A stretch of 56,387 nt of DNA, taken from assembly GCA_017466325.1 (NCBI GenBank), contig JAFTUK010000038.1, positions 1-56,387 of the forward strand. The letters run 5' to 3'. How positions within the stretch are numbered: the first letter of the stretch is position 1; every line of letters begins with the position of its first letter. Of this stretch, positions 2,393-18,460 are shown piece by piece. Origin of the DNA: Bacteroidaceae bacterium (GTDB taxonomy: Bacteria; Bacteroidota; Bacteroidia; Bacteroidales; Bacteroidaceae). The position numbers and the translations under genes were made by a program. The notes under the pieces are model-generated. The model saw nothing but the letters and a program-made list of their open reading frames with translations. It did no database searches and had not been told where the DNA came from.

Positions 2393-2436
2393 GCTTTTTT
2401 GCCTTTAGTTTATCGCAAAGATAAGTATATTTTTTA

Positions 2437-2570: not shown

Positions 2571-2611
2571 TGCCAAAGCCGTTAACCCTAAATTAGACAT
2601 AAGAGCGTGCC

Positions 2612-2675: not shown

Positions 2676-2761
2676 CATGTGTCAATACTATCAGTAGGGG
2701 AGGGTACAATATTCTTTCCATCCTGTTTGTATGTATTTCGCTTAAGTAGTTTAACTTAGTA

Positions 2762-5323
2762 TTATTTCTTCCTGTTTTCTATATTCAAACGTGCCGTTAA
2801 CAAAACGCTAATAGGACGAATGTTATATAGATTGACGTATTCTACCAAATCGGTATTAGATTGAGATAGGTATGTGCGAGTATTGGTGATATTGTTAACT
2901 TCTAAGATAAAGTCGTGTTTCTTCTTGGTCTTAAGTGTTAACGACGAATTTAAGAACACATAATTCTTCTTGTCTGGATTACTCTTGTTGTAAGAATGAT
3001 TGGCAGTAAGCGATATGAAGAAATGCTTGGGAATAATGCTCAGGTACATGTTGGCACTTTGTTCCAGAGTGTGGATAGTTTGTGTGTAATCTTCTGAACG
3101 GGAATTTAGCGAGTTCCAATTGAGGTTGTAGCTGAGACGTAACCGAGACACAACATCACCACTACATTTTAGTTGCGCATTAAAGGAATTGGACTTTAAG
3201 TTGCTGACTACCGATTGGCGTAGTACTGTATTGACAGAATGTGTGTAATTTGCATTGGCTACCAGTTGTATATTGTGCCATTCTATATCTTTGCTCACAT
3301 TGCCTATGCATGAAAAGGTCTTCTGGTGATTAGGCATATCAACAGCCTGTATGATGGTGTGCGCATCTTGCTCTATATAAGAACCATATACCACATCAGA
3401 CCACGAAAAAGAAGCCTTGCCCTCAACGTATGCAAAGATTTCGTTCATTATATCCTTAAAATTTAGTTTAAGGTTGACTCCTGCTGTCTGTGCTTCGGAT
3501 ATGGTAGGTTTGTATCGGTTAATGGTTCGATAGTTTGCCATGATGTATGCAGATATCAGTTGGTTCCAGGGTGTTTGATTGATGCCATAACTACTGCCAC
3601 CTGACAAAGTCCAAAAGTCATTTGCTTTCCATAAAATACTGACACTGGGGCGAAGACGCACTCTCAGAGCATCTGTTTCGTTGAGAACAGTAGTATATGA
3701 TAATGATAGTGGCAGACGTAATGTCATTCTGAAATCATTATATACATATCTGGCAGCTGCTCCAGCATTAGCCTCGAATTGCAGATAATCCATCGTAGCA
3801 ACATCGTTTACCTTGGCTTGCAACGAGGAAGCCAAACCCACGTAATCAAGATTTATAGAAGCCGTTGGAACAAAAGTCCAGTGTTTTCTACGTAAATCAC
3901 GTAGCATAGAGAATGTGTTTTTAGAACTAAAACGTGTAACATCAACCTCTTGACTAGCACTCATGTCACCATAAACAGAAAGACGTTGAGGCGAGGTATT
4001 ATAAGAATTGTTACTCCTTACTTCTATACCATTACCATTGTCAGTACGATGTATGTAGTGGGTCTTGTTCTCTATGCCTAAATTCCGATTATAGGCCTTC
4101 TGCATGATATCCTCATTGTTGGATAATACACTACCTTTAGCACTATTCCATACACCATTGGCATAAAAGTCGTTACGAAAATATTTCTTATCAGCATTCT
4201 TTTCGTACACCAACTGAAGAAGAGCCTCGTTGGATGTATTCACGGAGCTAATATCTTCCGTTAATACACGTACATCAGCCTCTGGCAATATGTAGGTTTG
4301 TTTTTGATAGGCACTACGCAGCCTTCTGTCGTGATTGTACGAGAAGTTGTAGTGCAGCGTAGTGCTATCATTCAGTTTATTCAGATTATTAATCGTAACC
4401 AAGTGCTGATTGTTGAAGAGCGATGTTCCAACTGGAGACGCACCTGGTTCTAACACACTTGTTAGAATTGCTGCATTGTTTGCAACTCTACTTTTGGGAT
4501 GATTACCTGTATTATCATTACCATAATAAATGAAGTGCTGTCGCTTCTTGCCAAAAAACATCAGGTTAGCATCGTTACTCCACAATACCTTATCACCATA
4601 GCCCAAACCCAATGTCAGTGATTTGGTCCATATGCCTTTTGCTTCCTTCTTAAGTTTAAGATTGATCGCTGCATTGTCTGGTGGAACCTGGTCTTTGAGA
4701 GCCTTAATGTGTTCGTGGTTTTCCAGAACCTGAACAGTAGCGACATCCTTTGCTTTCAATGATTCCGTAAGAATACCATAGCTACCCTGCATCAAGTCCA
4801 TATTCTCAACATATAGATGGCTAATGGGTAATCCCTGATATTTGATTTTACCATTGTCTATTGTTATACCTGGTAGTTTCTTAAGTATATCGGCTATACT
4901 ATTGTCATGATCCTTGGTATATGCAGCCACAAGATAATTGAGCGTGTCTCTGCTACCCCACAATTTCTGAGCCTTAATTTGAACTTCATGTAGGAGCGTA
5001 CTCTCTTCTATAGCATAAAAGTCCAAGGTTTGCGACTTGGCATCAATACGCTTTATCTCCTTTTTTATATTAAAGCCAGAAAAACGAACCAGCAGTTCCT
5101 TGGCAGAGGTAGCCAGCATCAATCTATAGGTACCACTTTCATCTGGACGACAATAGGCTACTATCGTCGAATCTGGCACTTGCATTATAGTCACGATAAT
5201 GTCCTCTACAAAGACTTTATCATTTCCAGTTATAGTGCCCGAGATACATATACTATCATTGCTAGCCTTGGACGTTGACCATGCAATAATACAGAGAATT
5301 ATGGAAATGACATATTTTATCAT
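2762..5323 (-). CDS. TonB-receptor-like outer-membrane beta-barrel protein
   Basis: An 853-residue protein. After a signal peptide (about 1-20) comes a carboxypeptidase-regulatory-like beta-sandwich (about 25-110), then a plug-like segment (residues 125-225, with LPGITIDNGKIKYQGLPISH). A long barrel rich in alternating aromatic strands runs to the C-terminus. No SusD partner is present. The gene begins 6 bp after the GLPGLI gene and is probably co-transcribed with it, a pairing that recurs in Bacteroidota. The substrate is unknown. Export or receptor function for a peptide or small ligand is an inference from the decayed GG-leader gene just upstream. Codon use is AT-rich relative to the housekeeping genes in this window. 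Confidence 0.85.
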   Translation of the reverse strand: MIKYVISIILCIIAWSTSKASNDSICISGTITGNDKVFVEDIIVTIMQVPDSTIVAYCRPDESGTYRLMLATSAKELLVRFSGFNIKKEIKRIDAKSQTLDFYAIEESTLLHEVQIKAQKLWGSRDTLNYLVAAYTKDHDNSIADILKKLPGITIDNGKIKYQGLPISHLYVENMDLMQGSYGILTESLKAKDVATVQVLENHEHIKALKDQVPPDNAAINLKLKKEAKGIWTKSLTLGLGYGDKVLWSNDANLMFFGKKRQHFIYYGNDNTGNHPKSRVANNAAILTSVLEPGASPVGTSLFNNQHLVTINNLNKLNDSTTLHYNFSYNHDRRLRSAYQKQTYILPEADVRVLTEDISSVNTSNEALLQLVYEKNADKKYFRNDFYANGVWNSAKGSVLSNNEDIMQKAYNRNLGIENKTHYIHRTDNGNGIEVRSNNSYNTSPQRLSVYGDMSASQEVDVTRFSSKNTFSMLRDLRRKHWTFVPTASINLDYVGLASSLQAKVNDVATMDYLQFEANAGAAARYVYNDFRMTLRLPLSLSYTTVLNETDALRVRLRPSVSILWKANDFWTLSGGSSYGINQTPWNQLISAYIMANYRTINRYKPTISEAQTAGVNLKLNFKDIMNEIFAYVEGKASFSWSDVVYGSYIEQDAHTIIQAVDMPNHQKTFSCIGNVSKDIEWHNIQLVANANYTHSVNTVLRQSVVSNLKSNSFNAQLKCSGDVVSRLRLSYNLNWNSLNSRSEDYTQTIHTLEQSANMYLSIIPKHFFISLTANHSYNKSNPDKKNYVFLNSSLTLKTKKKHDFILEVNNITNTRTYLSQSNTDLVEYVNLYNIRPISVLLTARLNIENRKK

Positions 5324-5329
5324 ATTGCC

Positions 5330-6154
5330 TTATTGCAATTCAATAGGAATGTATGGAACTGGCATATGCTCAAATCCTCCCTCCATTCTAAATGTGACTC
5401 CGTAATCTGCTGCAAAGGCGCCATGGTCTTTATGCAGCATTTTCTCCATTTTGAGCGCCCGATTTCTCTTTATGTCACGAATAGGCTCTGCATAGAACTG
5501 TATTTTCTTGTCGTTCTTGCCCTTTTCTATCCCTACTGCAGTAAAGTGATATTCACCCTTTGAATCCTTTGCTTCGAGAATTAATCCTGGCAACCCCTGC
5601 AACTTCCAAGGTCCATAGCTCAAAGGAATATCGGTGGTAAACCACACCTCATATTGACGACCTCTGAAAGTACATGATGCCTGCTGACAATTATATCCAA
5701 GAATATCCTTCTGTCCGGCTTCCATCTTCCATTTAATATTAGGTATGGACTCTGTATACTTATATACACCAGCTGCATCCAAATCAACAACTTGCATCAG
5801 CTTACCTTTCTTGGGATAACCAATGTATGTTTCTCCTACCAAGGCATGCAACTGAAACATCTCTATTTTCCAACGATTCTTTTGGGCAAGCATCTGGAAT
5901 TGGCCAAATAATTTATTCCTCTCCCTTACCACATAGCTATGAGCTACACCTTGCCCAATCTCCAGCATCAATGTTTCTTTTACACGCCATTCATTGGGAT
6001 TGTTGTCGCTCGCAGGCGAGCAAAGTTGGTTCATCTCATAACTTACTACCAGATTAATCATCTCTACGTCTGTCATTCCTGCTGTTTGTGCATAAGTGAA
6101 TGAACTCACTATGCTACAAATTAAAGCAGTAAATAAATTCCTTAAGTTCTTCAT
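5330..6154 (-). CDS. GLPGLI family protein
   Basis: A 274-residue secreted protein with a signal peptide (about 1-23, ending FTYAQ). The family hallmark is seen as LQGLPGLILEAKD at about residues 183-195, preceded by YEVWFTTDIPLSYGPW. The function of the family is unknown; its members usually sit beside TonB-receptor-like barrels, as here (6 bp to the barrel gene). The upstream 31 bp leads into the decayed peptide gene at 6186-6367, so peptide, GLPGLI and barrel may once have been one transcript. Confidence 0.9.
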   Translation of the reverse strand: MKNLRNLFTALICSIVSSFTYAQTAGMTDVEMINLVVSYEMNQLCSPASDNNPNEWRVKETLMLEIGQGVAHSYVVRERNKLFGQFQMLAQKNRWKIEMFQLHALVGETYIGYPKKGKLMQVVDLDAAGVYKYTESIPNIKWKMEAGQKDILGYNCQQASCTFRGRQYEVWFTTDIPLSYGPWKLQGLPGLILEAKDSKGEYHFTAVGIEKGKNDKKIQFYAEPIRDIKRNRALKMEKMLHKDHGAFAADYGVTFRMEGGFEHMPVPYIPIELQ

Positions 6155-6185
6155 AATTTATGTCCCTATTTATAATTTTATTAAT

Positions 6186-6367
6186 TCAAGCTTCTGAAGT
6201 TGCGTATCCTTCATATCCATCTAAGATACACGCACCAGAACATTGTTCATGCGTTTTATGAGCACATCCCTCTAAAATTAAATCTCCTCCAACAATTTCT
6301 TTTTGTTCATTTGTAGAGAGCAACTGAACATCGCGCTAGTTAATGTAAATTTCTTAATCTTTTACAT
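6186..6367 (-). pseudogene. Decayed double-glycine-leader peptide gene (RiPP/bacteriocin-precursor type)
   Basis: Between GLPGLI and the next ORF, a frame read from 6332 down to the TGA at 6186-6188 gives 48 residues. It starts DVQLLSTNEQKEIVGG, the typical GG-leader cleavage site, followed by a core containing three cysteines (GCAHKTHEQCSGAC). No start codon fits: an in-frame TAG lies two codons upstream. One base out of frame, the upstream DNA reads KIKKFTLTSA after ATG-TAA at 6362-6367. The leader is therefore split by one nonsense codon and one single-base shift. A TTG at 6323 could in principle start a 45-residue peptide, so residual expression is not excluded. The likely original product is a secreted, possibly modified, peptide. 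Confidence 0.6.
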
Positions 6368-6378
6368 TTCTTTGAATT

Positions 6379-6675
6379 TTAATTAGTTTTGCAAGAAAAT
6401 GCTTGCGTTTTTGTTTTTATCTGGTCATGCAACATACTCTTACGAACTCTTATCTCATCATATCCGCCATATCTTGGTTGAAGTAAGAGGAGTCGCATTT
6501 CGTCCACTGGTACCAATTTCTCCTTGCTTGGATATTCCTGCGCTATAGGCAATACATTGCCCGAAGGGAACAGACTCTCACTGGTGGCAAAGACACTGAG
6601 TGCCAGAGTTGCCATAGGAATGATGTACAGCACCTTGCTGCGCATCCACACACTGGATTTTGATTTCTGCATCAT
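6379..6675 (-). CDS. Small membrane ORF, possible M56/BlaR1 fragment
   Basis: A 98-residue ORF. Residues 5-33 (KSSVWMRSKVLYIIPMATLA and following) resemble the basic stretch plus last transmembrane helix that follow the peptidase domain in Bacteroidota M56/BlaR1 proteins. The HExxH-bearing part and the other helices are absent, so it is either a truncated remnant or an unrelated small membrane protein. The tail (residues 40-98) has no recognisable domain. It lies on the same strand as, and 11 bp before, the decayed peptide gene. M56/BlaI pairs often accompany GLPGLI genes, which makes the remnant reading plausible but unproven. Confidence 0.35.
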   Translation of the reverse strand: MMQKSKSSVWMRSKVLYIIPMATLALSVFATSESLFPSGNVLPIAQEYPSKEKLVPVDEMRLLLLQPRYGGYDEIRVRKSMLHDQIKTKTQAFSCKTN

Positions 6676-6969
6676 AGTGATATGCTTTAAAAGTTAAACT
6701 ATGGTCGAAGTTGTTGGTAAAAGTGTAGGAGCTGGCACCAACAAATTCTTATTTATATATGTGAAACAATATTGATTTATGTTTCGACAATGCAAAGTAA
6801 GACAATACCCCTTAATATTGCAATAGCCAGATATCGTCATTTTGCGATAAAGCTCCGTATTTAACTTTTATTCGTAGTAATAGAAAGTCGAAATCGTATA
6901 TCTACAGTCTCGACTCTAAATTAAACCCAAATCGGTCATTGGACCATCGTATATTTGGGATTATCGTGC
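6676..6969. other. Intergenic AT-rich stretch without a visible gene
   Basis: About 290 bp upstream of the 98-residue ORF. I find no ORF with coding character, no tRNA and no convincing hairpin. It presumably holds the promoter of the minus-strand unit below it. Confidence 0.5.
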
Positions 6970-7022
6970 GATACTATGTCTAAAGTGATGAAAAAATCAT
7001 CGTTTCAGACCACTTATCGTTT
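6970..7022. repeat. Isolated copy of the 53-bp repeat
   Basis: It begins GATACTATGTCTAAAGTGAT and ends with the CACTTATCGT block, matching the unit of the array at 2437-2570 over most of its length. The two sites bracket the barrel / GLPGLI / peptide-remnant block. Confidence 0.75.
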
Positions 7023-7067
7023 TGACTATTTTATCCCATATAGTACCCCCTTCAGTACCACGCTATC

Positions 7068-7156
7068 GGTACTGGAGTTTTCTATATACCGGTACTGCAG
7101 TACTTATATACTGGTACTGCAGTACCGATATGCTGGTATTCATTCGGTACTGGGAA
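7068..7156. repeat. 22-bp degenerate tandem repeat, about 4 units
   Basis: Units begin GGTACTG or GGTATT at 7068, 7091, 7113 and 7135. The two middle units contain the 12-bp palindrome GTACTGCAGTAC. The array lies 35 bp past the stop of the ABC ATPase gene. Confidence 0.7.
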
Positions 7157-7190
7157 GCTCTTTTTAGCCAGTATAAATTCTTGAGAAGAC

Positions 7191-7865
7191 TTACATCATC
7201 ACCTCGTCCACCACGCAACCGTCGAAGAGGTTGACTATGCGGTCGGAATAGGCGGCATCTCGTGCCGAGTGTGTCACCATCACTATTGTTGTACCTTCGC
7301 GATGCAATTCGCGCAACAGCCCCATCACCTCCAGACCATTCTTCGAGTCAAGGTTTCCCGTAGGCTCGTCGGCAAGGATTATCTTAGGCTGCATCACCAC
7401 GGCACGTGCTATGGCAACACGCTGCTGCTGACCACCCGACAGCTGAGAGGGGAAGTGCTTGGCACGATGCTCAATGGCCATACGTTTCAGGGCATCGGTG
7501 ATGCGACGCTTGCGCTCGTCGGCAGGAACTTTCATGTACAATAGAGGTAGTTCGATGTTTTCCTCTACGGTAAGTTCGTCAATCAGATTAAAGCTCTGGA
7601 AGATGAAGCCCAGTGTGCCACGTCTAATCACATTGCGCTCCTTTTCGGTCAGTGCGCTCATGTCCTTGCCATCAAGGATGTACTGACCATTGGTAGGTCT
7701 GTCCAGCAAGCCAAGTATATTCAGCAGCGTAGACTTGCCACAACCCGAAGGTCCCATTATGGCTACAAACTCGCCCTGCTTTACCTCAAGGGAAACGTTA
7801 ATCAATGCATGAGTCTCAACCTCTTCCGTGCGAAACACTTTTGATATACTATCAGTCTTAATCAT
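7191..7865 (-). CDS. ABC transporter ATP-binding protein, MacB/LolD type
   Basis: A 224-residue nucleotide-binding subunit. Walker A is GPSGCGKST (38-46), the Q-loop glutamine is Q90, the signature is LSGGQ (142-146), Walker B carries DEPTG (D166, E167), and the H-loop lies in VTHS near the end. The size and motifs match the MacB/LolD/FtsE group, whose partners are FtsX-fold permeases that work mechanically on periplasmic substrates. The partner permease is encoded 75 bp upstream on the same strand. No membrane-fusion protein or TolC gene is present nearby, so the exported substrate and route are open. It is probably transcribed from the sigma-54 promoter at 10338-10353 together with the permease. 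Confidence 0.93.
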
Positions 7866-7904
7866 AATATTGTCTTGTTAAATTTTCTTATCTATTATCT
7901 AAAC

Positions 7905-7932
7905 TCGCTAATCGCTCGTCGCTAATCGCTCG
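7905..7932. repeat. 14-bp direct repeat, two units
   Basis: TCGCTAATCGCTCG occurs at 7905 and 7919 in direct tandem, between the permease stop and the ATPase start. Similar CTCGCTTACTCGC wording appears in the E elements near 21.98 and 47.23 kb. No function is evident. Confidence 0.6.
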
Positions 7933-7940
7933 TCGCTCCA

Positions 7941-10256
7941 CTACGCCTTAATCACCATTGCCGGTTTTTCCTTGAAGCACATCTTCACCTTGTAGGCAAC
8001 AAGGATGGAGACAACGGATACAATCAGCACAATGATGCAGAGTGCAGGCATTACGCCAAGTGTTATTTGCTCGCTATATGTTTCAAGCCACATAGTCATC
8101 ATTATATAGCCTATGCACAGACCCATGGCACTGCCAATGAATGTGATGAGGAGATAGGTGCGTAGGGTCTTGCCTAAGCATATAGAGTATGTGGCACCAA
8201 AGATGCGACGGATGGCCAATGAACGGCGTTGGCGCTGGAGGTCGGCACTGATGAGTGTCAACAAACCGAAGAGTGCGATGCAGAAACCTATGGCAGAGAG
8301 AACTGAATATAGTTTCAGGTAGTTCTGCTCCTTCTCGTAAGTATCAGATATCATATCTCCAAAGTTGACCACACGGACAAGTCCGGCATCCACATTCATG
8401 TCCCTACGACGCAACAGATCCTCCACGGCTGCTATACCTTCTTTCTCCTTGCCGGGATGGAAACTGAAGTAGGCAACATTTGTGTTCCAAGAATTATGGT
8501 AATGGCTATAGGCAACCAAGTAGGGGTCTTGATGCATATTTATTGTACAAATATCCAAGATACCTACTGCTTCCAAACCATTTGGCAGAAAGGGATTCTC
8601 TGGTGTGATGCCAAAATACTTCGCGGTATTTGTTGCGAGCAAAATCTGGCCCATTTTCATTTCAAACTCCCCATCTGCATCTTTCCATAGATTTGGCTTG
8701 ATTTCGAATAGACGCATTGCAGCAGGAGTCAATTGCAAGGTCCACATATTCTTGTCAAATCCCTCAAAGGGCGTGACAGTATTTGAGGTAACATCATAAA
8801 ACGGGGCTTGTACGATACAGGTGTCTACTGCTGCTATTGATGCAACTTCATGTGCAAATTCGGTGGAACTGACCAGAACCTGATTTTTTGCATCAGTAGT
8901 TTTTATAGTGTAGACTTTGTGTGCATTAAATCCCAAGCCATCGTGGCTGACATACCTCAATTGTCTGCCACCATTCCACACCAGAAAGAGCAATAATACG
9001 CTGACGCTTATCTGCGTTGTTACAAAGATATGGTTCAGAAACGAGGAATTGCCTTGCGGTGCGCCATGGATGGCTTTCTTGTACTTTTTGTGTTGCAGAT
9101 ACACAGGTATTGTGCACAGAAAAATCAAGAGCACCACCATTGCGAACCATACCGTCACGAGCCATTGCATCACATCGCATTCCGGCATCTGCATATACTC
9201 CAGGAAAGCTTTGTAACCCAGTTCCTGTATTATGCACGCACAAAATCCAACGGCAAGAAGTACCAATAGCACCTCGGCATAGATGCGTCGCAAGGTGTCG
9301 GAACCTGCACCGAAACTCAATCTTAGGCGATGCTCTGTCCAACGGCTTTCGGCATTTGTATTAAGCAATGCCAAGTATGAGAATGACGCAGATATGAGCA
9401 ACAAGGCAGACAGTATAAGGAATATTCCAGGATAAAGGGCTGCCTTCCAGAAACTGCTATTGCTCCACAACAAGTGAAACATTCTTACTGGTACCAGTCT
9501 TAATGCTGCTACCTTGTCCTCCATATTCTCATTGTTCTGTTCTATCAATGCCATCAATGCCTTGCTATCTGTGGTCCTTGTAACAATCAATGCGGTATTG
9601 GTTTTACATGTGTATTTACTAAACCATGTCACATTCTCGATCTTACGATATAAAAACGCCTGAGCACCTGTAATCATGCTTCCTTCTTCTCCTTTGACTA
9701 TACCACATACTTTTGCCTGTATGCTTTTGTTATGGTCTTCTTCTAAAGTTATCTCCACCATAGTACCCACCAAATCGGTTGTGCCATACAGAACCTGTGC
9801 GGCTTGTTCGGAGACGACCACTTCACCTTCTTCTTGTACAGGTCGGCCGTAGATAAAATCCGCTTGTACCACATCAAAGAATTCGGGAGTTACCAATAGC
9901 ATAGTCTTAGTCTGATTGGATGCACTATCTGTCCTTCCTTTTAATTTATTGCCACTTAGTGATGCCATTGAAGCAATCATACCTTCAGGCATATTCTTTG
10001 TCAGTTCGCGTGCTTTTTTTACCGTAAAGAAATAATTGGATTGTGTGAGTCCTTCTGGTGTGTATGCTTGTAAAGCATATACATCGGCATCGTCACCGAT
10101 GCCATGTTCTTCGTGCGTTATTTCCCATATACCAGCAGCGGAGAATACGAAGGCTGCCATGGCAAAGGAGAGTATGCCCACTATGAGGCAGGTCTGTAGC
10201 TTGTTGCGCTTGATGTGGCGAAGGGCCTGAACGAAATTGATGAATAGTAACTTCAT
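7941..10256 (-). CDS. ABC transporter permease with two FtsX domains
   Basis: A 771-residue inner-membrane protein with eight predicted helices. One lies near residue 25, followed by a long periplasmic MacB_PCD-like domain. Three helices follow in the first FtsX domain (about 270-400) and one near 420. A second periplasmic domain then leads to three C-terminal helices (about 650-760). The cytoplasmic motif SLAIRRIFGAT before the sixth helix is the usual FtsX coupling region. This is the double-length architecture common in Bacteroidota. It is the first gene after a perfect -24/-12 promoter and two enhancer-like palindromes, so it is the most direct candidate target of the sigma-54 regulator encoded just upstream. 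Confidence 0.92.
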   Translation of the reverse strand: MKLLFINFVQALRHIKRNKLQTCLIVGILSFAMAAFVFSAAGIWEITHEEHGIGDDADVYALQAYTPEGLTQSNYFFTVKKARELTKNMPEGMIASMASLSGNKLKGRTDSASNQTKTMLLVTPEFFDVVQADFIYGRPVQEEGEVVVSEQAAQVLYGTTDLVGTMVEITLEEDHNKSIQAKVCGIVKGEEGSMITGAQAFLYRKIENVTWFSKYTCKTNTALIVTRTTDSKALMALIEQNNENMEDKVAALRLVPVRMFHLLWSNSSFWKAALYPGIFLILSALLLISASFSYLALLNTNAESRWTEHRLRLSFGAGSDTLRRIYAEVLLVLLAVGFCACIIQELGYKAFLEYMQMPECDVMQWLVTVWFAMVVLLIFLCTIPVYLQHKKYKKAIHGAPQGNSSFLNHIFVTTQISVSVLLLFLVWNGGRQLRYVSHDGLGFNAHKVYTIKTTDAKNQVLVSSTEFAHEVASIAAVDTCIVQAPFYDVTSNTVTPFEGFDKNMWTLQLTPAAMRLFEIKPNLWKDADGEFEMKMGQILLATNTAKYFGITPENPFLPNGLEAVGILDICTINMHQDPYLVAYSHYHNSWNTNVAYFSFHPGKEKEGIAAVEDLLRRRDMNVDAGLVRVVNFGDMISDTYEKEQNYLKLYSVLSAIGFCIALFGLLTLISADLQRQRRSLAIRRIFGATYSICLGKTLRTYLLITFIGSAMGLCIGYIMMTMWLETYSEQITLGVMPALCIIVLIVSVVSILVAYKVKMCFKEKPAMVIKA

Positions 10257-10337
10257 AGGATCTGTTGTTTTGGTTTAACGGTTATTGCTGTTCGTATCAA
10301 GGACACCGTAGTGCGGTTGGTCCTATGTATATACTCT

Positions 10338-10353
10338 TGCAAAAACCGTGCCA
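10338..10353 (-). promoter_or_regulatory. Sigma-54 (-24/-12) promoter
   Basis: On the minus strand it reads TGGCAC-GGTTT-TTGCA, a full match to the RpoN consensus TGGCAC-N5-TTGCA with the correct GG-N10-GC spacing. It ends about 80 bp before the permease start at 10256 and lies downstream of two 14-bp palindromes. Confidence 0.9.
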
Positions 10354-10409
10354 AACATCTTATCTGCTGATTATGCAATAGTTACAGCGTTATGCCGGTT
10401 CTCAAAACC

Positions 10410-10444
10410 GTGCGCCAGCGCACATCAGGTGTGCGGAATCGCAC
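10410..10444 (-). promoter_or_regulatory. Two enhancer-like palindromes (UAS) for the sigma-54 regulator
   Basis: GTGCGCCAGCGCAC (10410-10423) and GTGCGGAATCGCAC (10431-10444) share GTGCG-N4-CGCAC and are 21 bp apart centre to centre, i.e. on one face of the helix. They lie roughly 60-95 bp upstream of the -24 element, a normal enhancer distance. The first is identical to a site at 13212-13225 ahead of the regulator gene. Confidence 0.8.
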
Positions 10445-10462
10445 GAATAGTTTTTCGTTTCC

Positions 10463-11692
10463 CTAAGGTAGTGTTATCGTGAATACACTTCCGTGTTGAG
10501 GTTGTGACTTTACGGATATGCGTCCGCCATGACGCTGGATTATCTGCTTGCAGAGGCTCAGGCCTATGCCGGACCCTTGTGGCTTGGTAGTGAAGAACGG
10601 TATGAAGATGCTGTTAATCACTTCGGGCAGGATGCCTTGTCCGTAATCGCGGACGGAAATTTCTATGTGGCCGTTGGCATTGCGAGCCACGTTGATGTCT
10701 ATAGGACCGGGACCCGCCTCGGAAGCATTGTTGACAAGATTCACCAGAACCTGCATCAGCAGGCGAGGGTCGGCATTGACTTCCAGAGTGGAGGGTGTGG
10801 CATTGCACCTCAGGCGCTGGCCGTAGAACTCCATCAGGTCGTTGAAATATTCCTGCACGGGTATTGCTTCGCATTGAGGCTGGGGTATGCGTGTCAACTT
10901 GCGGTAGTTGTTGACAAAGTCCAGCAACCCCTTGCTGCGCCGGTGTATTACGCTCAGTGCCTGTTCTGACTCGGTGGCAGTGTTGGAGGAATGGGAATCC
11001 TTGTGTTCTGAAAGGCCGATGATGGGAGTGAGCGAGTTCATAATCTCATGCGTCAGCACGCTCACCAACTTCTGCCATGCCTCTATCTCCGTTTCTTCCA
11101 GTACCTCGTGTATATCCCTGAGGCTGACAACGCGGTAGGTCTGCCTGTCCAGTACAAACTTGCGCGAGCATACCAGCATCTCGTACACCGTATTGTGGTG
11201 GGTGTGTGTCACCTTGTGTGCCGAGCGTGTTGCTATCCATTCCTGTGGCAAGCCGTGCATGGAACCGAGCATAAGTATGGAGGCACGGTTCTGCCATGTT
11301 ATCTCGCCATCCTCCCTGCACACGAGTACACCGGTGTCCACTTCGTCAAGAACCTGCTCGTAGTAGTGCTGGCGTATGGCTTCGCTTTGCAGACGTTGTC
11401 TGAATATGTCAAACGTGAGGTTCAGTTCCCTGACAAGCGTACGCCCAAGACAGCCCTTGGACGAAGAAACCCTGTCCGACGTGTCCCCCATGCGTATCAG
11501 TTCTATTGTGCCAAGCATGGTGGACAATAGATGCTTTTGCATGGAGACGATATATATAATAAGGAATACCTGCACCAGCAGGCATCCGAAGGCGCTGAAG
11601 TAGAAATCGTGCAGCAGACACGCTACCAAGGCATAGGCGCTGAGTGTGAGCAGGACGGTTGTGCACAGAACCTTTAGGGTGAATCTTGTCAT
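10463..11692 (-). CDS. Membrane sensor histidine kinase (NtrB/NtrY-like)
   Basis: A 409-residue kinase. Two transmembrane helices lie at about 8-28 and 30-50, then a PAS-like domain (about 105-195). The H-box is VLTHEIMNSLTPI with H215. The ATPase domain has the N-box NLVNNASEA and G-boxes DYGQGI and GSGIGLSLCKQI. The loop between the helices is very short, so the signal is probably sensed in the membrane or the cytoplasm. Its start overlaps the end of the sigma-54 regulator gene by 4 bp (ATGA-type coupling), so the two are a cognate pair. The 206-bp gap to the permease carries the sigma-54 promoter. Confidence 0.93.
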   Translation of the reverse strand: MTRFTLKVLCTTVLLTLSAYALVACLLHDFYFSAFGCLLVQVFLIIYIVSMQKHLLSTMLGTIELIRMGDTSDRVSSSKGCLGRTLVRELNLTFDIFRQRLQSEAIRQHYYEQVLDEVDTGVLVCREDGEITWQNRASILMLGSMHGLPQEWIATRSAHKVTHTHHNTVYEMLVCSRKFVLDRQTYRVVSLRDIHEVLEETEIEAWQKLVSVLTHEIMNSLTPIIGLSEHKDSHSSNTATESEQALSVIHRRSKGLLDFVNNYRKLTRIPQPQCEAIPVQEYFNDLMEFYGQRLRCNATPSTLEVNADPRLLMQVLVNLVNNASEAGPGPIDINVARNANGHIEISVRDYGQGILPEVINSIFIPFFTTKPQGSGIGLSLCKQIIQRHGGRISVKSQPQHGSVFTITLP

Positions 11693-13050
11693 AGGCCGTA
11701 CTTCTCCATCTTTCGGTACAACATGAATCGGGTAATACCCAACAGTTTGGATGCACGGCTTACATTGCCTTCACAACGCGCCAGCGCCCGCTCTATTGAG
11801 ATGCGCTCCACGGTTTCCAGATCGAGCGTGTCTTCCGGATTGGCAGAGGGAGGCCTGTTGAAACTATCGGCCGGCAGGTCGTTTATGCCAATAACGGACT
11901 TCTTGCACAGGATAACGCCACGCTCTATCAGATGTTGCAGTTCGCGCACATTGCCCGGCCAACTGTATTCCTTCAGTCGTTTGAGCAGTTCGGCAGAAAG
12001 TCCGGTGATGTTCTTGGAATACTTGCGGGCATAGATGTTGGTAAAGTGCTTTGCCAGCAGGGGAATGTCTGTAATGCGTTCGCGCAATGGCGGAACACGC
12101 AGTTCTATGGTATTGATGCGGTAGAGCAGGTCCTGGCGGAAGGTTCCCTCTGCCACTGCTCTGTGTATGTCAATATTGGTGGCGCAGATAAGGCGGACAT
12201 CAATGGGGACGACCTTGGTGGAGCCAAGGCGTGAGCATTGGCGCTTCTCTATGCAGGTCAGCAGCTTTGCCTGAATCTCTGTCCTTAGATTTCCTATCTC
12301 GTCCAGAAACAGGGTTCCGCCATTGGCGCTCTCCATGCGTCCTGCCTTGGAACTCAGGGCACCGGTGAAGGCACCTCGCTCATATCCGAACAATTCGCCT
12401 TCAAATAAGGTCTCGGGTACAGCTCCCAGGTCAATGCCTACAAAGGGTTTGCTATTGCGCAAGGAATGCCTGTAGATGTATCGTGCCAGGACATCCTTGC
12501 CCGTACCGTTCTCGCCAAGGATGAGTATGTTGGCATCCGTTTTGGCCACTTCCCTGGCAAGGGTAAGCAGCTGTTGCATGGATTCGCTTTCGCCTATTAT
12601 CTCCGTGTCGGCATGCGAGGTGCCTGTGGATTGCGCTCTCGCCGTAGATTCCTCGCAGCCCAAACCTTTCAGCCGCATGGCAGAAGAAAGCATTGTCATC
12701 AGTTGGCCCCTCTCCCAAGGCTTGGGCAGGAAGTCTGTGGCACCTGCCTTGATGGCGCGTACCACTTTGGGAGTATCGCTATAGGCAGTCATCATGATAA
12801 CAGCCAGGGTCTTGTCTATCTTCAGCATATCCCTGAGCAACTGGAATCCCTCTTCACCGCTTACGGCGTCGCGGGTGAAGTTCATGTCCATCAGCACTAC
12901 ATCTGGTTTATACTTCTTGCATAGCATCAGGGCACGCTCGGGTGTGTAGGCAACTCTTACCCATTCGCATCGTGGCGCCAACTGGTTGTTGATGGTGAAA
13001 AGCACATCGGCATTGTCGTCGACAACAAGGATTTTTCCAAACTTCTCCAT
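11689..13050 (-). CDS. Sigma-54-dependent response regulator, NtrC family
   Basis: A 453-residue activator with a receiver domain (1-125; acidic pair D11-D12, phospho-acceptor D55). The AAA+ domain (about 150-380) has Walker A GENGTGKD and an intact GAFTGA loop, needed to contact sigma-54. The C-terminal Fis-type helix-turn-helix (about 405-453) contains EGNVSRASKLLGITRFMLY. All parts for RpoN-dependent activation are present. Palindromes upstream of its own gene match those upstream of the ABC permease, so autoregulation plus exporter control is the expected circuit. It is the first gene of the regulator-kinase pair. Confidence 0.95.
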   Translation of the reverse strand: MEKFGKILVVDDNADVLFTINNQLAPRCEWVRVAYTPERALMLCKKYKPDVVLMDMNFTRDAVSGEEGFQLLRDMLKIDKTLAVIMMTAYSDTPKVVRAIKAGATDFLPKPWERGQLMTMLSSAMRLKGLGCEESTARAQSTGTSHADTEIIGESESMQQLLTLAREVAKTDANILILGENGTGKDVLARYIYRHSLRNSKPFVGIDLGAVPETLFEGELFGYERGAFTGALSSKAGRMESANGGTLFLDEIGNLRTEIQAKLLTCIEKRQCSRLGSTKVVPIDVRLICATNIDIHRAVAEGTFRQDLLYRINTIELRVPPLRERITDIPLLAKHFTNIYARKYSKNITGLSAELLKRLKEYSWPGNVRELQHLIERGVILCKKSVIGINDLPADSFNRPPSANPEDTLDLETVERISIERALARCEGNVSRASKLLGITRFMLYRKMEKYGL

Positions 13051-13086
13051 TCTATGTCAAAAGCAGATTACATTGTCATATGCACG

Positions 13087-13094
13087 CAAAATTA
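13087..13094 (-). promoter_or_regulatory. Possible Bacteroidota -7 element for the regulator gene
   Basis: On the minus strand it reads TAATTTTG, fitting TAnnTTTG, 37 bp before the regulator ATG. No TTG is found at the usual 19-20 nt upstream. A weak alternative is an RpoN-like GG-N10-GC at 13124-13139 (TGGTTC-TTTTA-GAGCA). Neither is firm. Confidence 0.3.
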
Positions 13095-13145
13095 TACATA
13101 ATAAACGACTCTGCACAGGACAATGCTCTAAAAGAACCATGTTAA

Positions 13146-13179
13146 GAGTAAAAGTGTGCGGTACCGCACACTTTTACTC
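13146..13179. promoter_or_regulatory. 34-bp perfect palindrome with UAS core
   Basis: Two 17-nt arms (13146-13162 and 13163-13179) are exact reverse complements. The centre holds GTGCGGTACCGCAC (13156-13169), the same GTGCG-N4-CGCAC pattern as the sites ahead of the permease. It lies about 100 bp upstream of the regulator gene and is likely an operator or enhancer for that protein. Confidence 0.8.
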
Positions 13180-13211
13180 CTTTACACTTCCATCGTGTCC
13201 ATGAACCTGCC

Positions 13212-13225
13212 GTGCGCCAGCGCAC
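13212..13225. promoter_or_regulatory. Enhancer-like palindrome (UAS), second site ahead of the regulator
   Basis: GTGCGCCAGCGCAC is identical to the site at 10410-10423. Its centre is 56 bp from that of the 13156-13169 core. Confidence 0.8.
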
Positions 13226-13296
13226 AATCGCATCCTTCTGTTTAATACGATAACTTGCGTAAGTGTGGTTTCAATATTGTGCAACCTTCCTAAAAA

Positions 13297-13370
13297 AGTA
13301 AAGGCCATTACTTTGCGAAGTTAAGACCTTTACATTACGAAGTAAAGGCCTTTACATTGCGAAGCAAGTA
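13297..13370. repeat. 22-bp tandem repeat, about 3.3 units
   Basis: Units start at 13297, 13319, 13341 and (partial) 13363, exactly 22 bp apart. The type sequence is AGTAAAGGCCTTTACATTGC plus GA. Each junction places GTAAAGGCC beside GGCCTTTAC, so the array can fold into alternating hairpins. It lies between the second barrel gene's stop and the regulator promoter region. Confidence 0.8.
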
Positions 13371-13430
13371 CTACTGCCTTTGGGAGTGTGTGTTTCCTGC
13401 ATGATAGATGTGTGTTTCTTTGCGGGATAA

Positions 13431-16115
13431 TTATTTTTTCTTCGTAGCAAAACGATACTTCACGCTCAGCATAGCATACCTACCGAGAGTATTATTGTAC
13501 GTATTGGTGAGAGAGGTGGCATCGTACATGCGAGTGAAGCCGGTGTTCTCATTCAGCAAATCATGGGCAGATATTTCGACAAGAAGATTCTTTCCTTTCA
13601 AAAAGTGGCGTTCGATAGAGAAGTCCATCATGAGCCAGTCCATGCGTTTGCGGTCAGCATGGTATGCCGCATAGTTCTGGTAATTTATTACAGCATCGAA
13701 GTTGAGCGACCAAGGCAGTTGCCATGTCAGACGTCCTTGGATGTGGTGTTGCCACAGTTCTTTATTATTGCCAGCGATGTAAGTGCTACGGTTGTTCTCA
13801 AGAGTAAGTTCGTAGGCGATGGATGCATCAATATTACTAAACTTCGCACGAGGCTTTACTTTTGCCGAGTAAGCATGGAGATAGTTGCTGTTGAGCATGG
13901 GCTGTTCATCTTTATGTCCTACCACGGCATAACTGTTGGTGTGGTGTATGTGTGCATTGGCAGATACATCCAGCCAAAAACGTTGTGAACGGTCGAGTGG
14001 AGTGGTAAAGTTGGCCCCCAGACTGCCATACCAGTTGCCTGAGACGTTGATGGGTGTAGAGGTTACCTCGCCACTGACACGGTCATAGGTCATGAGGTTT
14101 GTGAAATCATTCTCAATAAAGGCTACGTTGAGGTTGGCACTCAGTTGCCGTGTCACTTTGCTGCTATCTGCACGGTAACTGATGAGATCTTTGTTGTATG
14201 AACTTCGCAGATTGTATTTGGTACTTTTCTTCAAAGCCTCGTTGCCATAAATGATATATTGGGGGTCGGCCATATCAGGATAGGTTACGAGCGATAGAAT
14301 GTCGGGTAGTGTGTGCGAAATGTCTCCATAGAATCGCAGAGTACCCAGTTTGTCTGTGCTGAATCTAAACTGTGATTTAAGATCCACATATATATAGTCG
14401 CGCTCTGGAGTGAGTGTTGGCAATGTTCCCTTGGTATAGTATAACCGTTCCTTGGCGAAACAGATAGTGGGCCAAAGTTCCATATAGAATATCTCTTTGC
14501 CAAGATCTATGGCTGGTGTTATGGAGTGAGTATTACTTGTAGACTCCCAATGTCGGGTGGTCTCGTCCTCCATTGCTACAGAGCGCCACGAGGCATCGGT
14601 AGGCAAAGTGCCAAAGAGTTCGTGCGATGTGGTAGGGTCGTTGTAGACACCACCCAGATTGTTTAGCAAATATCCATGTTCGTCATGTTCTTCATGCTGG
14701 TATTTGTAGTCGTATACCAAAGACGTACAGAAATAATTAAATCCCTTGACATCATAATACTTCATAATCCTTGCCTTTACATCTTGCTTGGAATTGTTGC
14801 TCTGCATATCCTTGTAGCGGTTAATCAAGGTGGAGTTTGTATGTTCTGTATTGAAATACTTGTAGTATGTCTGGTTGTGTTCTGCCCCACTATCGTATCC
14901 TATGTGCATATTATGAAAGAGGGAGATGTATATGTCCTTATCAGCAATAGCATGAGTTATTTTCAGATTATGATCATACTTTGCAGCATCGCCCCGATTC
15001 AGTACAGACTTGCGTTGAAGGTCTATGACTGAAGGCTGATAAGGCGGAGCTATGGAGAGGTATAGCAAGGTGTCGGCAAGGTGTTCGCCATACTCAGGAC
15101 GTTCGTTCCAATTAGCTGTAAGAGAAGACAGATTCTCGGTGTGCTGATGAATGTCTAAATTTCCTTGGTAACTCAAGGACGTGGCATCGGCTATTTTCCA
15201 GTCGAGTCTCATCATTGCGGCAATACGGTCGGTGTCGCTATTCTTTTGTACATCAGAGGCAGAGTACATGCTTCCGTCAGACAGATATAGTTCGCGCTCT
15301 GTCTGAGTGTTATTGTCATGCTGTTCCTTATTGTAATCCACGCTACCCTCTATCTTGAAGTATCCCTTCTGTTTCTGTCGAAGCTTGTTTTTCCAGTAAA
15401 ATGTGGCACCAGGTGTGTAATAGCGGTTATCTCCTGCCACTGCATCTCCCGGGCATTGACGTCCGTCGCCACTATACCATATCTGTTCATTGATATTATT
15501 GGCATTGCCAAATAACGATATTCGGTACTGGTCGGTAAAGGTGTTGGCAAATCCGCGACCCATGAAACGCTTGTCACTGCCGCCACCGGCAGCAATCTCG
15601 CCAGTCCATGTGCCCATGTATTTACGACGTACTGTGACATCAGCCACCAATTCACGGAAACCGTCGTCCTTTCCATGCATCATGCTGAAATCGCTATGCC
15701 GTTCATATACTTTCACATCTTTCATAATATATGATGGCAGGGTCTGCAAGGCCAGCATAGGGTCTTTGCGCGAGAAGTCAACTCCGTTGATAAGAATGCT
15801 ATTCACTTCACGTCCATTGTGATAGAGTACTCCATCCCTGAAACTCATGCCAGGCAAACGCTCAAAGGCATCGCGTAACAATGCCCCTTCCTTTATGGTT
15901 AGTGCATCCAGGTCGTAGATGGTGGTGTCGTTCTTGGTAACAAGCAGTAGTCTTGTGGCACGGACAGTTACTTCCGAAAGTGTATCTACGTTAATACTGT
16001 CTGTAGATGAGGTATTTACGGGAGTGCCCTCAGTCATTGGTAGATTGTTTGCATAGACAGATTGAAATATGGATGTAAATAGGCATCCTAATATCAGATA
16101 ATATCTATTTTTCAT
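13431..16115 (-). CDS. Second TonB-receptor-like outer-membrane beta-barrel protein
   Basis: An 894-residue protein with a signal peptide (about 1-22), a short linker, and a plug-like domain directly after it (about 45-170; LPGMSFRDGVLYHNGREVNS). The rest is a large barrel ending in an aromatic-rich strand. Unlike the barrel at 2762-5323, it lacks the N-terminal carboxypeptidase-regulatory-like domain. No TonB box or SusD partner is recognised. It stands alone between the sigma-54 regulator and the 69-residue ORF, 18 bp after the latter. Ligand unknown. Confidence 0.85.
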   Translation of the reverse strand: MKNRYYLILGCLFTSIFQSVYANNLPMTEGTPVNTSSTDSINVDTLSEVTVRATRLLLVTKNDTTIYDLDALTIKEGALLRDAFERLPGMSFRDGVLYHNGREVNSILINGVDFSRKDPMLALQTLPSYIMKDVKVYERHSDFSMMHGKDDGFRELVADVTVRRKYMGTWTGEIAAGGGSDKRFMGRGFANTFTDQYRISLFGNANNINEQIWYSGDGRQCPGDAVAGDNRYYTPGATFYWKNKLRQKQKGYFKIEGSVDYNKEQHDNNTQTERELYLSDGSMYSASDVQKNSDTDRIAAMMRLDWKIADATSLSYQGNLDIHQHTENLSSLTANWNERPEYGEHLADTLLYLSIAPPYQPSVIDLQRKSVLNRGDAAKYDHNLKITHAIADKDIYISLFHNMHIGYDSGAEHNQTYYKYFNTEHTNSTLINRYKDMQSNNSKQDVKARIMKYYDVKGFNYFCTSLVYDYKYQHEEHDEHGYLLNNLGGVYNDPTTSHELFGTLPTDASWRSVAMEDETTRHWESTSNTHSITPAIDLGKEIFYMELWPTICFAKERLYYTKGTLPTLTPERDYIYVDLKSQFRFSTDKLGTLRFYGDISHTLPDILSLVTYPDMADPQYIIYGNEALKKSTKYNLRSSYNKDLISYRADSSKVTRQLSANLNVAFIENDFTNLMTYDRVSGEVTSTPINVSGNWYGSLGANFTTPLDRSQRFWLDVSANAHIHHTNSYAVVGHKDEQPMLNSNYLHAYSAKVKPRAKFSNIDASIAYELTLENNRSTYIAGNNKELWQHHIQGRLTWQLPWSLNFDAVINYQNYAAYHADRKRMDWLMMDFSIERHFLKGKNLLVEISAHDLLNENTGFTRMYDATSLTNTYNNTLGRYAMLSVKYRFATKKK

Positions 16116-16133
16116 AATAATTCTGCTGTAAAA

Positions 16134-16343
16134 TTATAAATCTCTATTTAACCTCTGTTTCTCTGTTAATGCTAGAAATATGCAGAAAAATAGTTGATAA
16201 AAATCCAGTGGAGATATTAAACCATCTTTATTAATATCCAACATTATACGATATAACTTTTTTATTTGTGTGGGTGTTGAAGTATTGTTTATGAGCGATT
16301 CCAATATATGGTTGTTAATTTTCTCAATGTAAAAGTATGACAT
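16134..16343 (-). CDS. Small ORF with an EF-hand/dockerin-like loop
   Basis: A 69-residue ORF ending 18 bp before the barrel gene's start. Residues 36-48 read DINKDGLISPLDF, with D, N, D, L, S and D at calcium-loop positions 1, 3, 5, 7, 9 and 12, followed by a hydrophobic stretch. One loop is half of a usual EF-hand or dockerin pair. There is no signal peptide and I recognise no family. It could be a real small protein of the barrel transcript or a remnant. Confidence 0.35.
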   Translation of the reverse strand: MSYFYIEKINNHILESLINNTSTPTQIKKLYRIMLDINKDGLISPLDFYQLFFCIFLALTEKQRLNRDL

Positions 16344-16370
16344 ATAATTGGATTTAATCCCATTATTTCA

Positions 16371-16457
16371 TTACACTTTTTACACTGCCACAAAATACAG
16401 GAGGGGGTATTTGCTTTTATTTCAGTATATTATCTTTTGCTTTACACTTTTTACACT
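16371..16457. repeat. Direct repeat TTACACTTTTTACACT, two copies
   Basis: Exact 16-bp copies at 16371-16386 and 16442-16457 lie 71 bp apart, upstream of the small ORF and second barrel gene. Each copy is itself a repeat of TTACACT. The seven-helical-turn spacing would suit a regulator site, but nothing else supports that. Confidence 0.55.
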
Positions 16458-16486
16458 CAAGGTATATTGATTATTAGGTATATAAA

Positions 16487-16537
16487 AATCACCCTATCTC
16501 CCAATTTATATTTAAAATTGAAAGATAGGGTGTGATT
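16487..16537 (-). terminator. Terminator after the TPR/HTH regulator gene
   Basis: The stem AATCACCCTATCT pairs with 16523-16537 with a one-base bulge. It is followed on the minus strand by TTTTTATA and lies 22 bp beyond the stop at 16559. Confidence 0.8.
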
Positions 16538-16558
16538 GTTTAGCGGTGTTCGTGTTGG

Positions 16559-18337
16559 CTACTTCAAGGACATGAGGTGAGAATCAAGTGTCTTAGCCCC
16601 TTGTGTTCCAAACAATTTTTGATTGACTGACGATTTAAGATTGGTGATTCGTTGCGAACTAAGTCCTAAGAGCAGTGATATTTCCGATGGAATGAATCGA
16701 AAACGAATCAAGATACTTATGATAATTTCTGTATGAGATAGTCCTTTGGAGGCATCTGTAATATTAGCATAGAATTTTGGGAATGCATTTTGAGCTGTGA
16801 CAAGAAGACAATTTAATTCATTAGGTGTTGCTTTTTGAGCATGCGAAGAAAGAGAATGCAGACGCTTTGCAATATCGCATGCGAATATTGCACGTTCGTC
16901 ACTCCATTGCTCAACACTCTGCTCATTGTCTTGATACATGGCAAGTGCCGTTTGGAGTTTCTGTATTTCGCTCTCCTTCTCCCTTTGAAATCTTTCGGAG
17001 TCTGTTTTGACTAATAGCAATTCTTCTGCAGATTTCTCTATCTCATGCAACAACGATTGATACCCTTTGTTGGTTTCAATCTGCTTTTGTCGTTCTTTTT
17101 TTAGTCGCTTCTGGTAAATTAACCACGCAACAATGACAATAGTAGTGGCGAAAACCACCAACAAAATTATTATTACACGAAGACGTGATGCCTTCTGCTC
17201 TGCTTTCAGGGCCTGCTCTTGAATCTTTGTATAGTTGTAAAGTGATTGATACCTCAAAAGATACTCAGATGATTTAGCCCGAGTGCTGGAATCATTCCAT
17301 TGACAATATAAATTAGCATATTTAATAACAGAATCAGGCTGATGTTTGAGCGAATAGGCCTTGGTCAGTCCTTGATAGGAGACCTCTTTCAGTCCGTGGC
17401 GCTGAGAAGTATAAAGTGGACGCAGCTCTATCAAATGTGACAACTTATTGAACATCTGTATAGCTGAGTCTGGCTTTTGAGCAATGTTGTAATACTTGCC
17501 CTTAAGATAAAAGTGAGCCATGTCATAATTCAAGGTATCTAGAGATTCTGTTAGAATCCCTGTCTTATATTCGTATTCACGCAATAGAATTTCCGCGCAT
17601 TTAATGTCTTTACGTTCAAGATAGTAATCAGTTTTAATTGGATATATCAAATCAGGATCCTCTTGAATTCCATTCTTTTCTGTAAATTGCGCTATACTAT
17701 CCAAAATCATGATTGCCTCTGATTGATTTCTAGAATCAAATAAACAACATGCCTGTAACCACATTAAACGAAGTGCCGATATTGTATCTCCAATCTGCCA
17801 TGCCAATCGTTCTGCATTAGAATCTGCTATTCTTTCGTTCTCAAACGCAGCGACACGCTGATACAATCCTCCCATCTGGCTATAAACACGCATCAGTGTA
17901 TGTAGGTCGCAGTCCTCGTCGTTTTCGTCAACGGCATCTACTGCCAGGTTCAGGTATTTCAGTGCCGAAAGCGCATCTTCCAAATCGCGATAAGCACAGC
18001 CCAATATGTAGTATGCAAGCATCTTTTGGTTGGCATTGCCGTGACGTTCGTACCAGTCAACGACTTCAAGCATAACGGAGTCTGTGGTGAAGTTCACATA
18101 AGCTTTGTTCATGGCCTTGCCCCTGAGAAGTTCGGCATGCATGCGCTCAGACTTGCTCATGGCGTTGAAATCCATACTCTCCAGCATGGTGAGAATGGTG
18201 TCTGGATTTTCATCCGACAGCGTGTCCATCATAAACAGTTGCTGCTCTGTGTGTCCGGAACGATGGCATGAAGTAGTGCTAATTAGCGCAGTAATTATTA
18301 TGTATATCAGCAAAAAAGCAGAAGTCTTGTTCTTCAT
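16559..18337 (-). CDS. TPR lipoprotein/membrane protein with C-terminal HTH-like domain
   Basis: A 592-residue protein from the ATG at 18337. An in-frame start at 18361 adds eight residues before the signal peptide and is less likely. The N-terminus is a signal sequence ending in ISTTSC, a possible lipobox. Tetratricopeptide-like helices fill about 40-370, a transmembrane helix lies near 390-415, a coiled coil near 415-490, and the last 80 residues contain SEISLLLGLSSQRITNLKSS, a LuxR-like helix-turn-helix. This layout recurs in Bacteroidota as a one-component regulator that senses outside the membrane and acts inside. A lipid anchor together with a later helix would be unusual, so the cysteine may not be lipidated. 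Target genes are unknown; the barrel gene next door is a candidate. Confidence 0.8.
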   Translation of the reverse strand: MKNKTSAFLLIYIIITALISTTSCHRSGHTEQQLFMMDTLSDENPDTILTMLESMDFNAMSKSERMHAELLRGKAMNKAYVNFTTDSVMLEVVDWYERHGNANQKMLAYYILGCAYRDLEDALSALKYLNLAVDAVDENDEDCDLHTLMRVYSQMGGLYQRVAAFENERIADSNAERLAWQIGDTISALRLMWLQACCLFDSRNQSEAIMILDSIAQFTEKNGIQEDPDLIYPIKTDYYLERKDIKCAEILLREYEYKTGILTESLDTLNYDMAHFYLKGKYYNIAQKPDSAIQMFNKLSHLIELRPLYTSQRHGLKEVSYQGLTKAYSLKHQPDSVIKYANLYCQWNDSSTRAKSSEYLLRYQSLYNYTKIQEQALKAEQKASRLRVIIILLVVFATTIVIVAWLIYQKRLKKERQKQIETNKGYQSLLHEIEKSAEELLLVKTDSERFQREKESEIQKLQTALAMYQDNEQSVEQWSDERAIFACDIAKRLHSLSSHAQKATPNELNCLLVTAQNAFPKFYANITDASKGLSHTEIIISILIRFRFIPSEISLLLGLSSQRITNLKSSVNQKLFGTQGAKTLDSHLMSLK

Positions 18338-18460
18338 AGGGGCGTATAATGGAAATGACATGCAAATATAGGATTTTTACCTGAATTCTGCAAATGCAAA
18401 AGCACCGTGCTAACATGATATAGTCAGAGTGGGGTTTTGTAACTTCAATCGCTTTGACTG

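Follow-up and report, generated by a model that had tools for sequence, protein, structure and literature searches.

NtrC-type activation of a sigma-54 promoter is a well-known principle, and the two-component activators of this family (AtoSC, ZraSR and the PEP-CTERM PrsKR type) combine a receiver, an AAA+ domain, a Fis-type helix-turn-helix (HTH), paired upstream sites and a sigma-54 promoter. The same parts are found in the locus described here, which lies in a 56,387-nucleotide stretch of a Bacteroidaceae genome (contig JAFTUK010000038.1; the whole stretch is termed the window) and consists of an NtrC-type response regulator, a histidine kinase, GTGCG-N4-CGCAC palindromes, a sigma-54 promoter and genes for an ATP-binding cassette (ABC) exporter. 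Compared with AtoSC, ZraSR and PrsKR, it has a palindrome of its own, ABC exporter genes as targets and a kinase almost without an outer part (by hydropathy), and its regulator fell below the cut-off in the best 25 of 93 NCBIfam families. An earlier annotation made from the letters of this DNA (the sequence-only reading) had called RpoN circuits poorly described in Bacteroidota; this needs qualifying, as the main text of a 2025 study (PMC12316311) reports sigma-54 promoters to be enriched at COG0577 permeases in Bacteroidia and terms its own link to an FtsX-like permease first evidence. Promoter and target class are those of the present locus, found there as a statistical enrichment. From comparison across genomes, we propose that the window carries one instance of a two-component switch that is conserved in Bacteroidales, in which paired palindromes and a sigma-54 promoter would activate exporter genes (probability about 0.88).

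On the minus strand the locus reads, in order, an 894-amino-acid frame, two palindromes, the regulator, the kinase, two further palindromes, the promoter, the permease and the ABC ATPase. The elements from the regulator onwards are:

11689-13050, minus strand: NtrC-type response regulator, 453 amino acids, GAFTGA loop, HTH with ITRFMLYRK
10463-11692, minus strand: histidine kinase, 409 amino acids, PAS, HisKA and HATPase_c, 4-base-pair (bp) overlap with the regulator
10431-10444, no strand: predicted distal enhancer palindrome GTGCG-N4-CGCAC, offset −91 from the promoter TGG
10410-10423, no strand: predicted proximal enhancer palindrome GTGCG-N4-CGCAC, offset −70 from the promoter TGG
10353-10338, minus strand: sigma-54 (−24/−12) promoter TGGCACGGTTTTTGCA, pointing at the permease; its distance from the palindrome pair matches that seen in relatives
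7941-10256, minus strand: FtsX/MacB_PCD permease, putative target gene, 771 amino acids, Pfam FtsX and MacB_PCD, 8 hydrophobic segments (hydropathy)
7191-7865, minus strand: ABC ATPase of the exporter, 224 amino acids, Pfam ABC_tran, presumably on the same transcript as the permease

Much of this had been recognized in the sequence-only reading and was found again: the full-consensus RpoN promoter before the FtsX permease, the two palindromes upstream of it at a start-to-start distance of 21 bp, and the kinase gene overlapping that of the regulator. The GAFTGA loop is likewise intact, in a single protein carrying the Pfam domains Response_reg, Sigma54_activat (PF00158), AAA_lid_14 and HTH_8 (Fis). 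The permease starts 97 bp downstream of the promoter. The only other exact TGGCAY-N5-TTGC in the window (34270-34284) lies within a long reading frame, and palindromes with at most one mismatch number 7 in the window against 1.79 (sd 1.24) expected, a count that no shuffle reached.

With the window regulator as query, matches at E ≤ 1e-100 were obtained in 43 of 121 family genomes and formed two groups, one of 49–65% identity and a sister clade of 39–47%. The ortholog set comprised 31 fetched loci; the regulator gene is present in 30 of these, which are all those listed outside the window's own genome. The sister-clade set comprised 20 of the 33 listed matches. In the ortholog loci the regulator–kinase pair is typically divergent from genes for TolC, an adaptor, FtsX permeases and an ATPase. 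A strict test (TGGCAY-N5-TTGC with at most one mismatch and GG/GC fixed, palindrome with at most one mismatch) recovered sites in just 6 of the 31 loci and was given up because the intergenic regions showed sites with TTGA, TTGG or TTGT. The relaxed promoter pattern was picked after viewing the data and is guarded by scrambled-motif, sister-clade and own-genome controls. Under this test, paired palindromes with a −24/−12 promoter were present in 28/31 ortholog loci (27/30 excluding L258, which was fetched because of a pattern match), compared with 0/20 sister-clade loci and 0/60 control loci from the own genome, and nine scrambled half-sites gave no match in any of the three sets. The geometry is fixed: in 27 of the 28 loci the distal site lies between −90 and −93, and in 24 the two sites are spaced by 21 bp (range 20–22 bp). 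The sites co-occur with one regulator clade, and the recognition helix follows the same division: [YF]xLYRK is found in 30/30 clade members, and LYRK in 0/20 members of the sister clade. The prediction that the regulator controls the ABC exporter is thus strongly supported by comparison, since regulator, paired enhancer and FtsX/TolC-type exporter promoter recur together in many Bacteroidales.

The layout was also searched for by DNA pattern alone. A scan of the genome_contigs collection for a palindrome, 50–80 bases and a promoter (31 allowed offsets) returned at least 115 stretches; the counts that follow are among the matches listed. By title, 35 of these stretches are Bacteroidota and 80 are not. 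In the Bacteroidota stretches, 47 of 53 palindrome–promoter pairs had offsets of 68–71 or 89–92, the remainder lying at −78, −79 and −84 (6/53), and both of the −84 pairs (L177, L183) fall in coding frames. The other stretches showed little offset preference (29/84 at the same offsets; a uniform distribution predicts about 22), and most of their pairs were regarded as chance matches. The next gene matched TolC, permease or ATPase by BLAST in 23 of the 35 Bacteroidota stretches, and by Pfam in L171 (Bacteroides fragilis Q1F2); the remaining stretches either reach a contig end or gave no recognizable gene. Across the order, a tandem TGCG-N4-CGCA pair was found in 9/393 genomes, against 1/393 for the control.

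Whole-genome regulons were read from pairs at a spacing of 21 with at most three mismatches, in B. fragilis and in 20 chosen genomes that had been picked partly for having matches, such that the counts apply within genomes and are not a prevalence. The pair was present in B. fragilis and in 18 of the 20, at 37 places, each of which was examined. A promoter stood at −89 to −93 for 18/18 exact pairs, 7/9 pairs with one mismatch, 5/6 with two and 0/4 with three; by eye, both one-mismatch exceptions show AGGCAY-N5-TTG at −91. Three loci gave no promoter with the patterns used: L342, and also L290 and L292, both of which had been fetched because of paired sites. The exact pairs precede TolC, FtsX-permease, ABC-ATPase or barrel genes in 17 of 18 cases, and paired-site targets as a whole comprise TolC, permease, ATPase, an OMP_b-brl_3 barrel (G174, Pfam) and one 857-amino-acid frame without a family; the target in G180 is a short frame that reads by eye like the start of a permease. 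B. fragilis has four such promoters, three in an exporter cluster beside a regulator of 58% identity and the fourth about 1.09 Mb from that regulator. Its second regulator (52%, L336) carries a different helix, ITRTSLYRR, and has no such promoter in its locus. Through this layout, one regulator family very probably activates a dedicated set of ABC exporter genes in gut-type Bacteroidales.

The genome from which the window comes (assembly 88% complete, 2.59 Mb scanned) contains six exact GTGCG-N4-CGCAC sites, against three for a reversed control pattern. With one mismatch there is no excess (73 palindromes, 83 for the control), and it is therefore the exact, paired sites that stand out. Five of the six adjoin sigma-54 activators, four in the window and one on a second contig (C39:1680); the sixth, on C54, lies inside a coding frame and was dropped as a regulatory site. 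The C39 palindrome is beside a sigma-54 promoter and a paralogous regulator/kinase pair (48% and 33% identical to those of the window, respectively) divergent from a TolC gene (Pfam OEP), which shares the enhancer and lies where the contig ends. The search for palindromes near promoters that the sequence-only reading had proposed was run on this genome: 64 exact TGGCAY-N5-TTGC matches were obtained, and an exact palindrome lies within 350 bp upstream of two of them, in the window and on C39. Offsets are −91/−70 in the window and −91/−71 on C39, where the second site has one mismatch, and both recognition helices read ITRxxLYRK. The idea of a self-contained circuit is not supported in this form, given the C39 pair with the same motif and layout before TolC and, in B. 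fragilis, a target about 1.09 Mb away; a second regulator/kinase pair of this kind makes cross-talk likely.

Other candidates in this genome were set aside. Two promoter matches, each accompanied by a palindrome with one mismatch (L036, L047), are enclosed in long reading frames, and the match ahead of dnaK (L071) resembles a terminator stem by eye. An intergenic exact TGGCAC-N5-TTGC 106 bp before an Hsp20 gene (L068:2001, G000:C51:17137; Pfam HSP20) has an inverted repeat nearby (by eye), without the GTGCG palindrome. RpoN has one gene match with an open frame. PF00158 gives six matches, three of them strong sigma-54 activator domains; the weak matches probably represent AAA+ proteins of other kinds, because the family also matches in control genomes without RpoN. 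The third activator (L046, G000:C12:5603-6970) has no receiver in the alignment and a GSYTGA loop.

According to the model, the kinase would phosphorylate the NtrC-type regulator. The regulator would then bind both GTGCG-N4-CGCAC palindromes, which lie about 91 and 70 bp ahead of the sigma-54 promoter and are separated by two helical turns. The bound regulator would oligomerize, and its AAA+ domain would open the complex of RpoN–RNA polymerase at the promoter. The result would be expression of the exporter genes that follow the promoter: in the window the FtsX-type permease and the ATPase, and in relatives TolC, permease, ATPase or outer-membrane-barrel genes, with a presumed role in removing toxic peptides or drugs. 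The C39 paralog probably reads the same site, such that two regulators may cover both promoters.

The regulator's own gene appears to be controlled differently. Three elements lie upstream of it:

13087-13094, minus strand: TAATTTTG, possible promoter of regulator and kinase, fitting TAnnTTTG
13156-13169, no strand: palindrome GTGCG-N4-CGCAC ahead of the regulator gene, in the middle of an extended inverted repeat that is perfect
13212-13225, no strand: palindrome GTGCG-N4-CGCAC ahead of the regulator gene, all 14 bp the same as 10410-10423

The two palindromes had been noted before, including the identity over 14 bp, and had been taken to mean that the regulator controls its own gene. Only the first part of that argument stands: the palindromes are there, and no sigma-54 promoter faces the regulator. 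Sigma-54 autoregulation was rejected on this ground; a weak match, TGGTT-N6-TTG, in this stretch has the opposite orientation. Palindromes upstream of the regulator recur in 4 of 6 same-strand loci (the window, L187, L262 and L274), each with two palindromes (at most one mismatch) about 119–175 bp before the regulator start, no −24/−12 promoter facing the regulator, and TAnnTTTG about 36–44 bp before its start. We take TAnnTTTG to be the Bacteroides housekeeping −7 box. Transcription of the regulator gene is probably carried out by housekeeping polymerase, with the two palindromes upstream of the gene modulating it. In the other two same-strand loci (L084, L103), no palindrome with at most one mismatch was found within 700 bp upstream of the regulator, and this absence counts against even indirect autoregulation.

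Several observations weigh against the proposed switch or narrow it. The regulator has no match at E ≤ 1e-100 in 78 of the 121 family genomes, and 3/31 ortholog loci failed the layout test: L262 has a weaker pair (one and two mismatches), L264 no pair, and L275 a pair without a promoter fitting the relaxed pattern. The exact composite pattern occurs in only 9/301 family genomes (control 0/301), in part because many relatives carry TTGA, TTGG or TTGT at −12. Upstream of the regulator, the spacing of the sites is 56 bp instead of 21, and a sigma-54 promoter is lacking. Finally, the window and C39 regulators are not distinguishable by site. It is a serious, if less favoured, possibility that the C39 paralog, or both regulators jointly, activate the window promoter, leaving the window regulator partly redundant. 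The shared motif, nearly identical layout and common ITRxxLYRK helix are consistent with this, although the regulator–kinase pair adjoins exporter genes in most ortholog loci, which favours local control.

Two further explanations question the function of the palindromes themselves. Instead of binding a protein, they could serve the preceding genes as transcription terminators or RNA hairpins: the inverted repeat at 13156 would fold at −24.8 kcal/mol (z −7.4), the site at 10431-10444 lies 18 bases beyond the stop codon of the kinase gene, and folding of the two palindromes at that place is slightly better than that of shuffles (z −1.77). However, the fixed −91/−70 spacing to the promoter, the position of the sites between divergent genes in many relatives, where a terminator is unneeded, and the 13212 site, which folds no better than shuffles (z −0.24), make this account of the palindromes very improbable; the 13156 site could additionally be a terminator. 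Similarly, the regulator might repress rather than activate at the palindromes, and a repressing or fine-tuning role is possible at its own gene, where the sites lack a sigma-54 promoter. As a general account, repression is hard to reconcile with a full AAA+ domain bearing a GAFTGA or GAFTDA loop and with the enhancer-type distance and sigma-54 promoter at all 18 exact pairs examined, and we consider it just as improbable. Judged by these comparisons, activation of exporter genes from paired sites is the preferred reading, and on sequence evidence the regulatory unit is real, conserved and predictive.

The activator loop itself varies within the family, reading GAFTDA in 24/30 orthologs and GAFTGA in 6/30; in sister-clade activators it is G[AS][FY]TDA (20/20). 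Five activator loops were read in B. fragilis (L335–L339), all ending TDA. In the main text of PMC12316311, GAFTGA is called invariant and activators were kept only with it. Such a filter would lose most members of the present family, and Bacteroidota activator counts made in this way may therefore be too low. The loop also varies with the −12 element: TTGC stands there in 5/8 GAFTGA loci and 2/22 GAFTDA loci (hand tally of the regulator-sampled loci in which loop and promoter could both be read, counting the window and C39; Fisher p 0.007, falling in strength to 0.014 minus four near-duplicates, kinship uncorrected). Against a tight link, 13 scan loci selected for TTGC and read for both features, among the matches listed, comprise 7 GAFTDA and 6 GAFTGA.

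The 894-amino-acid frame adjoining the regulator (13431-16115, minus strand) is a probable outer-membrane barrel; it has no Pfam match of its own and is weakly similar (24%) to the OMP_b-brl_3 protein of G174, which is a target of paired sites. A 98-amino-acid frame (6379-6675, minus strand) has no Pfam match, and its start looks by eye like what we take to be the membrane end of BlaR1/M56 proteins. Short GGTACTG/CAGTACC-type repeats are seen by eye at 7060-7160, immediately downstream of the gene for the ATPase.

The open-licence literature yielded no account of the palindrome, of its regulator or of the layout (subscription papers, preprints and supplements lay outside the search). A term search of the main text of PMC12316311 returned no palindrome, UAS or inverted repeat, and a term search of Francke 2011 (PMC3162934) returned no Bacteroid, GTGCG, ABC transport, TolC, efflux or Porphyromonas. 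Within this literature, the enhancer code, the regulator family, the kinase type and the loop variant in Bacteroidales appear new. The paired GTGCG-N4-CGCAC at −91/−70 would serve as a predictive code that names sigma-54 regulons from Bacteroidales genomes, including B. fragilis, and would link a single activator family with exporters of the envelope, on whose control in Bacteroidota the searchable papers say little.

Among exporters, the nearest described systems are MacAB–TolC and the darobactin exporter DarBCD, which share with the present family an FtsX/MacB_PCD permease, a MacB-like ATPase and, in relatives, TolC and HlyD partners. MacB is a fused ATPase–permease chain, whereas the two are separate genes here, and Pfam recognized no adaptor or TolC gene among nine genes scanned around 971-18361. 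The MacB model PRK10535 scored 228.7 on the ATPase (cut-off 966) and was not listed for the permease. The exporter, which had been named MacB-type, is thus better called MacB-like. The best NCBIfam model for the ATPase is ABC_ATP_DarD, and the window remains below the DarBCD cut-offs (DarD 277.4 of 375, DarB 29.5 of 700).

In arrangement, the locus recalls the Bce-type modules of Firmicutes (BceRS–BceAB), in which an intramembrane-type kinase likewise stands beside an FtsX-type permease and a separate ATPase. Bce-type kinases are defined by two membrane segments with a very short outer loop, and by simple hydropathy the window kinase has two hydrophobic segments (8-26 and 32-50) with about 5 residues between them, suggesting that it senses within the membrane. 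Related kinases have one or two N-terminal hydrophobic segments in 26/33 cases and none in 7 (same method), the latter including the C39-type kinases and L273, a wrong frame. Because a kinase without an outer sensor domain adjoins an FtsX-type pump, it might, by analogy with Bce, sense the pump; the soluble C39-type kinases speak against this as a general rule. A broader and rather doubtful proposal would be that Bacteroidales built a sigma-54 equivalent of the Bce detoxification module, in which a kinase almost without an outer sensor domain monitors how an FtsX-type pump is working in the membrane and, by way of the two-palindrome code, turns on a small regulon of pump parts that acts in trans and has several promoters, with most regulators and the sister clade using a GAFTDA-type loop instead of the supposedly invariant GAFTGA, and GAFTDA going with a relaxed −12 (TTGN for TTGC). 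Bce regulators are OmpR-type; in contrast, the regulator here is NtrC-type and acts at a predicted sigma-54 promoter, in a Gram-negative setting with TolC and HlyD partners in relatives.

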